NCBI GenBank assembly: GCA_030141605.1
Contig: JAQGDQ010000312.1
Coordinates: forward strand, 1-64,000
DNA from: Tubiluchus corallicola
Taxonomy: Eukaryota > Priapulida > Priapulimorpha > Priapulimorphida > Tubiluchidae
DNA length: 64,000 bases
Direction: 5' to 3'
The notes under the pieces were generated by a model that was not told the origin of the DNA, did no database searches, and worked only from the letters and a program-made list of their open reading frames with translations. The translations under genes and the position numbers were made by a program. Below are positions 11,701 to 17,700 of the stretch, piece after piece (position 1 is the stretch's first letter; every line of letters begins with the position of its first letter).

Positions 11701-14700
11701 TCCAGAACATGATGCACACAATCATGTTTGTTCATCCAGAACATGATGCACATAATCATGTTTGTTCATCCAGAACATGATGCACACAATCACGTTTGTT
11801 CATCCAGAACATGATGCACACAATTACGTTTGTTCATCCAGAACATGATGCACACAATCATGTTTGTTCATCCAGAACATGATGCACACAATCATGTTTG
11901 TTCATCAAGAACATGATGCACACAACCATGTTTGTTCATTTAGCACATGGTGCACACAATCCTGTTTGTTCATCCAGAACATGGTGCACACAATCATGTT
12001 TGTTCATCCAGAACATGATGCACACAATCATGTTTGTTCATTCAGCACATGGTGCACACAATCCTGTTTGTTCATCCAGAACATGATGCACACAATCATG
12101 TTTGTTCATCCAGAACATGATGCACACAACCATGTTTGTTCATTCAGCACATGGTGCACACAGTCAGGTTTGTTCATCTTGCCCATGATGCACATAATCT
12201 AGTGTGTTTTGTAAAAGTACAGTGCACTTACTCGAGTAATAGTTTGAGCCAGCTCTCTCCACTCACTGTTATAACCCAAGAAATAAGTTAGTGGCTATTG
12301 CCAGACTATTTAAAGGTACAAATCTAAGTCCTTTAAACACGTGTTTGGGTGCCCGACTTTGGGGCACTGTTGGCCAGGCCAGGAGCGACCCTGGGAAATG
12401 TCCTGTAGGTAACTGCAAGTTTCAGACGTTTGATGCTGTTTCATAAAGGTCGATGCTGTTAATATTGTACTACAGGGCTGTATGAAATGTAATGCTGGCA
12501 GGGGAATACAGTAGACTTCTTAGGTGTGCATGTGAACGTATTCTGACCTTGTGTTAGTAAAAGCCACTAGTCACATGCACACCTGAGCTTATAAAAAGGG
12601 AAGGTCTGCTGTAGACCCTTGTCAGTGGTCGTGTCTTTCAATGCAGCTCTGTTCACATTTCACAGGCTTTGCCGCAAACTCCGTTCTTCTAGGTAAGTTG
12701 TTTGTTCCTTATTGCGGGTGTAATATTCAGTAATAAATTGTCATTTCGACTCTATTATTTGGGTTTTGTTTTGGTTAAGGCGTTGAACGATTTAATTGAG
12801 ACATGCCGCATGGTGTGGGCCACGGTGCCATCCATCCTGCCTCCTTTAAAAGCGGACAGCTGTCCAATATTATACAGTGCTTAGCTGCCAACCAAAAGGC
12901 AAAGACAAAAATATTTCTGTACTGTTATTGACATAAACTGTTAGTTTACCTATGTACGGATTAATCTGTAACTTAAACACATTGAAACTCATTTTTAGGA
13001 CCAAGCAAATTCATACAAGATGGAAAAATGTTGTACGAGATGTTTGGCATGTTTCGCAACGTCTGCAACAAGGAGAATGTTGCATGTCATTTCATTTGGT
13101 CACCAAATTTTTGTAGAAAGAAATGTAGGACAACAATATTCTCCAAAATTTCGCGAAATTGTTGAAAAGGAGTCATAGTCTTTGCAGCATTTTTGAATGA
13201 TTTTGATCGCAAAAACCCTGGCTTACCCTGCACCAGAACCTCCTCTCTGACTCATGATCGAATCAAGTTCATCCAGAAATATCGTAGATGGAGCATGATA
13301 CCGAGCTAACTCAAACAACACCTGCAAAAAATCAATAAGTTCACATGAATTATTTTCATGTATCGCCTCGACCAAGCCATTCAGCATTCCACATGAGCCT
13401 ATTTGTACTTAATGAACTGGAAGAGTTTCTAAGCATCTCATCAGAGCATGCCTTGTGGAGGGAACAGCAGAAAGAAAGTTCAAACAATACCCCCGCAATA
13501 CGACTTTTTGTTAAAAATTTATCATATCAGTAATCTTTGAACTTGAAACGTACTGAAATAACAGACGACATTGTGTGAAACCTTATAACTGCCACAAAAA
13601 GAACAGATAGACAGACATGAGTTTTTGATAAAACATTACTTCTAAAATGACAGTGATGATGTGGCCCATGTCACATTGTAAAAAATGGGTTTATATGTTA
13701 CCAGGACTATAAAATATAAAAGCATTACAAACTTAACTACACGAGCAGCAAATGATTAAAATAAGTTTTCACACACATTATGATGTAAAACAAGAATCAC
13801 AAACAACAGGGTGCATGAGTACTCACCCTCACAAGTTTCTCTGAATCACCTCTGAGCAGCACGAGTACTCACCCTCACAAGTTTCTCTGAATCACACTTG
13901 ATGTACACAAGTACTCACCCTCACAAGTTTCTCTGAATCACCCCTGAGCAGCACGAGTACTCACCCTCACAAGTTTCTCTGAATCACACTGGATGTACAG
14001 AAGTACTCACCCTCACAAGTTTCTCTGAATCACACTTGATGTACACAAGTACTCACCCTCACAAGTTTCTCTGAATCACCTCTGAGCAGCACGAGTACTC
14101 ACCCTCACAAGTTTCTCTGAATCACACTGGATGTACAGAAGTACTCACCCTCACAAGTTTCTCTGAATCACCCCTGAGCAGCACGAGTACTCACCCTCAC
14201 AAGTTTCTCTGAATCACACTGGATGTACAGAAGTACTCACCCTCACAAGTTTCTCTGAATCACCCCTGAGCAGCACGAGTACTCACCCTCACAAGTTTCT
14301 CTAAATCACCCCTGAGCAGCACGAGTACTCACCCTCACAAGTTTCTCTAAATCACCCCTGAGCAGCACGAGTACTCACCCTCACAAGTTTCTCTAAATCA
14401 CCCCTGAGCAGCACGAGTACTCACCCTCACAAGTTTCTCTGAATCACACTGGATGTACACCAGAAATTACCCTCACAAGTTTCTCTGAATCACACTTGAT
14501 GTACACGAGTACTCACCCTCACAAGTTTCTTTGAATTACACTGGATGTACACCAGTACTTACCCTCACAAGTTTCTCTGAATCACACTTGATGTACACAA
14601 GTACTCACCCTCACAAGTTTCTTTGAATCACACTGGATGTACACAAGTACTCACCCTCACAAACTTCTCTGAATCACACTGGATGTACACAAGTACTCAC

Positions 14701-17700
14701 CCTCACAAGTTTCTCTGAATCACACTGGATGTACACAAGTACTCACCCTCACAAACTTCTCTGAATCACACTAGATGTACACAAGTACTCACAATCACAA
14801 GTTTCTCTGAATCACACTTGATGTACACAAGTACTCACCCTCACAAGTTTCTCTGAATCACCCCTGAGCAGCACGAGTACTCACCCTCACAAGTTTCTCT
14901 GAATCACACTGGATGTACACAAGTACTCACAATCACAAGTTTCTCTGAATCACACTTGATGTACACAAGTACTCACCCTCACAAGTTTCTTTGAATCACA
15001 CTGGATGTACACAAGTACTCACCCTCACAAGTTTCTCTGAATCACACTTGATGTACACAAGTACTCACAATCACAAGTTTCTCTGAATCACACTTGATGT
15101 ACACAAGTACTCACCCTCACAAGTTTCTTTGAATCACACTGGATGTACACAAGTACTCACCCTCACAAGTTTCTCTGAATCACACTTGATGTACACAAGT
15201 ACTCACCCTCACAAGTTTCTCTGAATCACACTTGATGTACACAAGTACTCACCCTCACAAGTTTCTTTGAATCACACTGGATGTACACAAGTACTCACCC
15301 TCACAAGTTTCTCTGAATCACACTTGATGTACACAAGTACTCACCCTCACAAGTTTCTTTGAATCACACTGGATGTACACAAGTACTCACCCTCACAAGT
15401 TTCTTTGAATCACACTGGATGTACACAAGTACTTACCCTCACAAGTTTCTCTGAATCACACTGGATGTACACAAGTACTCACCCTCACAAGTTTCTCTGA
15501 ATCACACTTGATGTACACGAGTACTCACCCTCACAAGTTTCTCTGAATCACACTGGATGTACACCAGTACTTACCCTCACAAGTTTCTCTGAATCACACT
15601 TGATGTACACAAGTACTCACCCTCACAAGTTTCTCGGAATTACCTCGGAGGTGCATGAGATCTCACCCTCACAGGTTTCTCTGAATCACCCCTGAGCAGC
15701 ATGAGATCTCACCCTCACAAGTTTCTCTGAATCACACTGGATGTACACAAGTACTCACCCTCACAAGTTTCTTTGAATCACACTGGATGTACACAAGTAC
15801 TCACCCTCACAAGTATCTCTGAATCACACTTGATGTACACAAGTACTCACCCTCACAAGTTTCTCTGAATCACACTTGATGTACACAAGTACTCACCCTC
15901 ACAAGTTTCTTTGAATTACACTGGATGTACACAAGTACTCACCCTCACAAGTTTCTCTGAATCACACTTGATGTACACAAGTACTCACCCTCACAAGTTT
16001 CTTTGAATCACACTGGATGTACACAAGTACTCACCCTCACAAGTTTCTTAGAATCACACTGGATGTACACAAGTACTCACCCTCACAAGTTTCTCTGAAT
16101 CACACTGGATGTACACAAGTACTCACCCTCACAAGTTTCTCTGAATCACACTGGATGTACACAAGTACTCACCCTCACAAGTTTCTCTGAATCACACTTG
16201 ATGTACACAAGTACTCACCCTCACAAGTTTCTCTGAATCACACTGGATGTACACAAGTACTCACCCTCACAAGTTTCTCTGAATCACACTGGATGTACAC
16301 AAGTACTCACCCTCACAAGTTTCTCTGAATCACACTTGATGTACACAAGTACTCACCCTCACAAGTTTCTTTGAATCACACTGGATGTACACAAGTACTC
16401 ACCCTCACAAGTTTCTCTGAATCACACTTGATGTACACAAGTACTCACCCTCACAAGTTTCTTTGAATTACACTGGATGTACACAAGTACTCACCCTCAC
16501 AAGTTTCTCTGAATCACACTTGATGTACACAAGTACTCACCCTCACAAGTTTCTTTGAATCACACTGGATGTACACAAGTACTCACCCTCACAAGTTTCT
16601 CTGAATCACACTTGATGTACACAAGTACTCACCCTCACAAGTTTCTTTGAATCACACTGGATGTACACAAGTACTTACCCTCACAAGTTTCTTTGAATCA
16701 CACTGGATGTACACAAGTACTTACCCTCACAAGCTTCTCTGAATCACCCCTGAGCAGCATGAGTACTCACCCTCACAAGTTTCTCGGAATTACCTCGGAG
16801 GTGCATGAGATCTCACCCTCACAGGTTTCTCTGAATCACCACTGAGCAGCATGAGATCTCACCCTCACAGGTTTCTCTGAATCACCCCTGAGCAGCACGA
16901 GTACTCACCCTCACAAGTTTCTCTGAATCACACTGGACTCACCTCGGAGATGCACGAGTACTCACCCTCACAAGTTTCTCTGAATCACACTGGACTCACC
17001 CCTGAGCAACACGAGTACTCACCCTCACAAGTTTCTCTGAATCACCTCTCCACTTGCTCACAATACTCGAGGCAGAGATGTTAAAGAAGGTCGTCTTGCA
17101 CTCAGTTGCGACGGCTTTAGCTAGTAATGTCTTACCAGTCCCTGCAAGACAACAAAACTTGAATGAATTGATGGTACAGGCAGAAGGAAACCTTTGCTGA
17201 ACTTGAAGAACAACTGTAACGGAATAATATTAACCTGTTTTACTAAATGTGATCTTATCATTAATAACTTTTTTCAAGGGTATTCAAATCATCATCTACA
17301 AAGAATTGAGGATGAAATTCACAAATGCACCAAAGCGCTGGAAGCAATGTTTTAATAGAAGCATCCCTTAAGCCAGACCTTCACGGGGTTCAAGACTTCG
17401 GTGAGTATCCGAAAATTTCTTAGTCTAACAGTCGCCAAACATGCACCAAAGTTCACAAAGATTCGTGAGTGTTCGCCGCTGCCTCCAAGAGTGGTCGGCT
17501 TTGGAAAATTTTTTAAAGTGTTTAGTTTGTCGCCGGAGTCGCAAAACTCGCCATTTTGCCAAACAGTCGAAAAGTTGTCGTAACACAAACCAAACATTGG
17601 CTAATTTGCTGCCAAACGTTGGCAAAATTTGTTACCAAATGTTGGCTAATTTATCACCAAACGTTGGCTAATTTATCACCAAACGTTGGCTAATTTGTCA

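Follow-up and report, generated by a model that had tools for sequence, protein, structure and literature searches.

How is a 5' splice site chosen when the end of an exon, together with its donor, stands some seventy times in a row? This question is raised by KATNAL2, one intron of which carries such an array in the 64,000-nucleotide stretch of DNA analyzed in the present study (C2042:1-64000, hereafter the window). The window belongs to a 264-kb contig, and the whole-genome searches covered the entire assembly, which comprises 2,344 contigs and 343.5 Mb. We consider it likely that the array, as a splice-border minisatellite (mirage), arose as a side effect of tandem duplication, is tolerated and is removed whole by splicing.

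The border array of KATNAL2

The array lies at the 3' end of exon c, the P-loop exon (17141-17023, minus strand), which was delimited by in-frame AG/GT joining and protein matches. This end reads AGA GGT GAT TCA GAG AAA CTT GTG AGG, with DSEKLVR as the last residues, and is followed by the true 5' splice site GTGAGTAC (17015-17022, minus strand), identified by donor scoring and exon joining. The border minisatellite was located by repeat finding and register splitting at 13809-17049 on the minus strand, the inner edge being approximate; Tandem Repeats Finder reported it at 13818-16934 with a period of 46, 67.8 copies and 91% matches. Splitting the minus strand in register yielded 70 copies, the first starting at 17039 and the last at 13843, and copy 1 was the true border. 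The 69 spacings comprised two of 57 bp and 67 of 46 bp, and all copies were in tandem and in the same orientation. It was observed that the GT was intact in all 70 copies, that AGG/GTRAG (the slash marks the splice site) was present in 66, and that the 11-nt donor AGG/GTGAGTAC, identical to the true donor, was found in 57; the remaining 11-nt donors were AGG/GTAAGTAC (5 copies), AGG/GTGAGATC (4), ATT/GTGAGTAC (3) and AGG/GTAATTTC (1). Each 57-bp spacing contained one extra donor-like GTGAGTCC. When up to one mismatch was allowed, TTGTGAGGGTRAGT occurred 64 times in the window, every time on the minus strand inside the array, as compared with a mean of 0.01 and a maximum of 1 in shuffled sequences. 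A query consisting of the array plus the exon matched a single place in the assembly (E <= 0.001), which ruled out a dispersed element. The unit spans the splice site, with 27 nt of exon and the donor-bearing start of the intron, and the array begins at the true border as a same-orientation tandem whose copy 1 is the exon end. The KATNAL2 array fits the anatomical definition of a mirage.

The preliminary description of this DNA had proposed about 70 tandem copies of an exon end and donor within KATNAL2, grown from the exon-intron border in the correct orientation. The 70 register copies, the GT retained in each of them, the coincidence of copy 1 with the exon end and the 69 spacings of 57 or 46 bp bore this out. 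The array end had been placed at 17141, which had to be abandoned because exon c spans 17141-17023 and this position is its 5' edge. The unit contains exon end and donor as had been stated, but its exon part had been given as the last seven codons, whereas the oldest-looking copies retain 27 nt of exon, or nine codons (RGDSEKLVR).

The origin of the unit can be read from its remnants. The 27 nt of the exon (AGAGGT...GTGAGG) recur complete at two copies (14083 and 13853), exon-derived AGAGGTGATT is kept before copies 65 and 70, and CTCATGCACC is kept by copies 5 and 30 and also follows copy 70 at the inner edge. The positions of AGAGGTGATT and CTCATGCACC agree with a founder composed of the exon end plus the intron start, and the simplest founder unit would be 27 nt of exon and ~19 nt of intron. 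In the proposed mechanism, this final part of exon c and the adjoining part of the intron would have been duplicated in tandem, and the duplicate may have expanded to 70 copies through slippage or unequal exchange. Neighboring units were slightly more alike, with 3.7 differences at lag 2 versus 5.2 over all pairs, the last, partly flanking unit being included. Since the copies are intronic and the first donor equals any copy, the growth of the array would have been nearly invisible to selection. Minisatellites make up 34.8 of the 264 kb of the KATNAL2 contig, and this load may thus account in part for the border arrays. The donor used, the mode of growth and the near-neutrality of the array are what we infer from these patterns.

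The consequences for splicing were then derived from the reading frame. Exon c meets its acceptor partner, exon d (13321-13227, minus strand, in-frame joining), in phase 0, and the intron between them measures 3,701 bp, of which the array takes ~3.2 kb. The first donor, adjoining the true exon, would be joined to exon d, and the remaining copies would leave with the intron. Reading past exon c gave VSTRVAQG and then the first in-frame stop, a TGA at 16998-16996 (minus strand), which is the ninth codon after the exon and lies upstream of all 69 decoys. A premature stop would come with 69 of the 69 decoy copies, irrespective of frame, the added length modulo 3 being 0 in 24, 1 in 23 and 2 in 22 of them; a transcript using a later copy is thus predicted to carry a stop, and the earlier suggestion that such use merely adds in-frame or out-of-frame junk was not upheld. 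The extra donor-like site with its GT at 16999 is the one site before the stop, and its use would frameshift into a stop in exon d. If KATNAL2 is a working gene, the first donor must therefore win nearly always, since every decoy brings a stop. The spliceosome most likely takes the first donor, and the stops would suggest regular splicing despite the copies. When an exon is recognized as a unit, the first donor is preferred, and stop-bearing transcripts undergo decay.

Donor strength was approximated by the predicted pairing with U1 in kcal/mol, a rough measure based on the 5' end of U1. The true donor and most copies (57 of 70, the true one included) reached -11.5 kcal/mol, whereas the values of the other six modelled donors in KATNAL2 lay between -4.1 and -9.2. 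This prediction agreed with the earlier claim of roughly 70 good donors and potential U1 sites.

The gene model and the identity of the host were examined with protein searches. Seven exons, a to g, extend from 20087 to 8290 on the minus strand; when spliced at their AG and GT borders, they form one continuous frame whose translation is recognizable as an AAA domain. In addition to exons c and d, in-frame joining gave exon a (20087-19989), exon b (18559-18496), exon e (11018-10911), exon f (10276-10108) and exon g (8389-8290), the 3' splice site of which is repeated upstream, all on the minus strand. The best named protein matches of the AAA-domain exons were KATNAL2 of many animals. With a longer KATNAL2 query, Priapulus was the top-scoring named match at 82%, and Biomphalaria and Owenia showed 84%, each over 66% of the query; in another protein search, in which a length filter excluded full-length KATNAL2, the top match was the rotifer Adineta (81%). 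A solved-structure search with a partial query ranked VCP/Cdc48 chains above katanin A1, and no KATNAL2 chain was among the 60 matches listed. Elsewhere in the window, ARFRP1 forms a single intronless open frame (31044-31739, minus strand). Its protein matched two records at 97% and 79%; next came Priapulus and fish, both at 73%, and then Branchiostoma floridae with 70%, and Priapulus was the best-scoring named match. An amphioxus host was rejected, as ARFRP1 was no closer to Branchiostoma floridae than to fish or Priapulus. A 5S rRNA gene (25274-25392, minus strand, 94.8 bits) lies near an N-terminal coding piece of KATNAL2 (25730-25981), and an Rfam search of 7000-27000 returned nothing else.

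Border arrays elsewhere in the gene and genome

A second border array was found in KATNAL2 by repeat finding and alignment. It repeats the acceptor and the start of exon g (8335-9274, minus strand) and includes two 122-bp copies in which the AG is kept, with 108 of 131 and 109 of 133 aligned bases matching the true border. Four older copies of 135 bp carry AA in place of AG, and 75-78 of 119-129 bases are identical. Either AG copy upstream of exon g would bring stops if used.

To search other genes, we used the kinase domain, for which 140 matches were obtained. Seventy exon pieces in 60 loci were examined; they were picked as likely to be flanked by introns and are thus a non-random sample. 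Stops occur in several pieces, which may be incomplete or extend into introns, and the edges of the pieces are profile edges rather than proven splice sites. Arrays near an exon edge appeared in 14 rows from 11 loci, of which L032, L023 (and L033), L056, L066 and L054 were inspected by eye and L029, L036, L041, L053, L062 and L074 were judged by coordinates only. Arrays that begin at the exon end and carry a donor in their unit were found at 3 of the 70 surveyed exons, all at donors. Named after their best solved-structure matches, these are a PASK-like gene (L056, contig C1769; 71 bp x 5.0, donor GTACGTGT), a CDK12/13-like gene (L032 and L083, contig C662; 25 bp x 52.5, 73% matches, donor GTACGTAT) and a twitchin/MLCK-like gene (L066 and L082, contig C1524; 45 bp x 22.3, donor GTGAGTAC). 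In the twitchin/MLCK-like array, a pattern search showed GC replacing GT in 11 of 18 later copies, and the CDK12/13-like array keeps the true donor in 19 of 38 CAAGTA copies. The PASK-like and twitchin/MLCK-like genes both have a stop ahead of their first decoy. Under random placement, 0.50-0.58 donors would be expected to have an array edge within the final 31 nt of their exon, and the probability of three or more was 0.014-0.022, for a criterion set post hoc.

The whole genome was also scanned for the donor motif itself. Triple GGTRAGT with a spacing of 15-45 bp occurred 1624 + 1867 times and the reversed motif 534 + 630 times, and the permuted motif and its reverse gave 309 + 335 and 340 + 244, respectively. 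Outside the arrays on the KATNAL2 contig, the donor 7-mer was counted 57 times and its reverse 51 times, as compared with 24 for the permuted motif and 16 for the reverse of the latter, so these two are poorer controls because they are rarer from the outset. The genome-wide excess is a hint only, because the counts refer to copies instead of arrays, are dominated by large arrays and include families found on more than one contig. One 26-bp donor-bearing unit was seen on two contigs among the places listed (C12:47360-47938 and C21:72286-73047), and some donor arrays are thus dispersed families. Within the array units of the KATNAL2 contig, the donor motif was present in 3 of 65 arrays as compared with 1.46 in shuffled units, which was not significant. 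A scan of 71 arrays on this contig based on open reading frames gave five rows and no convincing further donor array at an exon end; it was uninformative, as it did not recover the KATNAL2 array either. Myosin exons were located in the genome with 93 matches.

Taken as a general proposition, the idea that minisatellites of this genome arise preferentially at 5' splice sites, as arrays that begin at the exon end and contain the donor in every unit, and that they are tolerated with the spliceosome taking the first of equal donors, is a tentative one that we regard as possible but doubtful.

Other repeats were observed in the window. Related 34-bp minisatellites lie at 11151-12199, 20229-21020 and 21026-21381, near exons e and a of KATNAL2, and represent a family present at more than one place. 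Four arrays with related 138-bp units occupy 35935-41456; they are repeated together with their flanks and contain long open frames on the minus strand. Minus-strand open frames at 50366-55355 resembled a BEL/Pao-type retroelement when judged by eye.

Alternative explanations

The best-surviving alternative, although an unlikely one, is that the array acts as a regulatory decoy. The 69 strong donors would bind the U1 small nuclear ribonucleoprotein. Splicing would thereby be slowed or diverted, or the long intron protected from early polyadenylation, so that the length of the array would tune KATNAL2 output via the decay of stop-bearing transcripts. The U1 pairing of the true donor and of most copies, stronger than that of the six other modelled donors, would suit this function, stop-bearing transcripts as a substrate for such control are predicted from all decoys, and human IFI6 offers a precedent for the use of repeat-borne donors (PMC4526556). 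Selection on the decoys was assessed within unit classes, namely a main class of 52 units and a minor class of 15 units. Nine-column windows that varied as little as the donor columns or less numbered 38 of 46 in the main class and 13 of 46 in the minor class. In these within-class windows, the donor columns showed no excess conservation over the rest of the unit, and no selection maintaining the decoy donors was found; purifying selection on them was rejected on this basis, which counts against a regulatory role. The raw contrast between spacer and donor mostly reflects two spacer classes, in a count to which the last unit, extending into the flank, also contributes. The array also folded worse than all 200 shuffles (z +3.1), which rejected a structured RNA, and the folding of the exon border was ordinary (z -0.2 versus shuffles). 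Moreover, the like anatomy recurs in unrelated kinase genes, two of which have weak U1 pairing (-3.3 and -3.8). Slowing, diversifying or buffering of splicing by the decoys has had no support so far.

Three observations weigh against a passively tolerated array whose first donor is always taken. The GT is intact in every copy, which recent homogenization explains and selection could explain too. Two decoys of the CDK12/13-like gene, at intron nt 26 and 51, precede its first stop at nt 83; thus decoys do not always bring a stop, and the rule is not general. In addition, human IFI6 is reported to use downstream repeat units as donors (PMC4526556).

An error of assembly, which would have produced the copy number or the entire array, is very unlikely. 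The locus is present once in the assembly, so alleles are not comparable, which leaves some room for this explanation; against it, the 67 complete 46-bp units comprise 28 distinct sequences in non-periodic order, and like anatomy occurs at three genes on other contigs. Coding use, in which AG-preceded, in-frame 24-nt stretches would be spliced in as microexons and duplicate a piece of the AAA domain, is scarcely credible: an AG precedes 51 of the 69 copies in a suitable frame (32 CDSEKLVR, 13 CDSKKLVR, 3 CDSEKLVI, 2 CDSEKFVR and 1 CDSEILVR) and the junction of exons c and d is in phase 0, but no pyrimidine tract accompanies the AG, exons of only 24 nt are difficult to recognize and the duplicated stretch sits within the conserved ATPase core.

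Meaning and comparison with known systems

Work on the choice among equal 5' splice sites usually relies on small numbers of engineered sites. KATNAL2 would provide a natural experiment with one true donor and 69 decoys, mostly identical and 46 bp apart, in which a wrong choice leads to a stop; together with the three further donor arrays and the acceptor array, it would make first-donor preference and its error rate measurable. If the doubtful idea of a preferred origin at 5' splice sites is true, KATNAL2 with its 70 donors would be a natural test showing that the position next to the exon, and not donor strength, decides the choice of the 5' splice site, and splice-border arrays would be a recurrent class far beyond amphioxus.

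In amphioxus, mirages have been described in Adh3, the globins BflGb6 and BflGb9, troponin C and PGBD5 as border-spanning tandem repeats at either kind of splice site; many of their copies contain splice signals, splicing is reported as normal, and they have been proposed as a source of new introns (PMC3087553, PMC3902484). The KATNAL2 repeat likewise crosses an exon-intron border and carries a splice signal in many copies. For copy number the comparison is with the globins, which have 3-6 units of 150-160 bp, as opposed to 70 copies of 46 bp in KATNAL2. Mirages have so far been described in cephalochordates; the KATNAL2 array falls outside this host range, which is not an anatomical property. 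No literature report of a mirage in a non-chordate was found when titles and the openings of abstracts were judged, and no relevant literature linking KATNAL2 with a minisatellite was found when titles were judged.

In human IFI6 (6-16), a minisatellite supplies several donors, and two downstream units are used, giving three mRNAs (PMC4526556, citing Turri et al. 1995). The two genes are alike in that repeat units behind the exon are each capable of serving as a donor, as predicted in KATNAL2; they differ in that downstream units are used in IFI6, whereas all 69 decoys of KATNAL2 would bring a stop. Since genes with amphioxus mirages are reported to be spliced normally and IFI6 to use downstream units, both normal splicing and the use of decoys have precedent. 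In human segmental duplications, tandem repeats at borders alter or create introns (PMC2812944); these vary between recent paralogues and may stay exonic, whereas the extra copies of KATNAL2 lie on the intron side at a single locus. Earthworm metallothionein resembles KATNAL2 as an invertebrate gene with large intronic tandem arrays (PMC12783039), and a splice site inside the array is stated for KATNAL2 only. Minisatellites that cross exon-intron borders were thus already known from amphioxus, and a donor-bearing one from human IFI6; the copy number, the non-amphioxus-like host, the second (acceptor) array in KATNAL2 and the recurrence at 3 of 70 kinase exons are new. Collectively, the comparison suggests that splice-border minisatellites are not peculiar to amphioxus.

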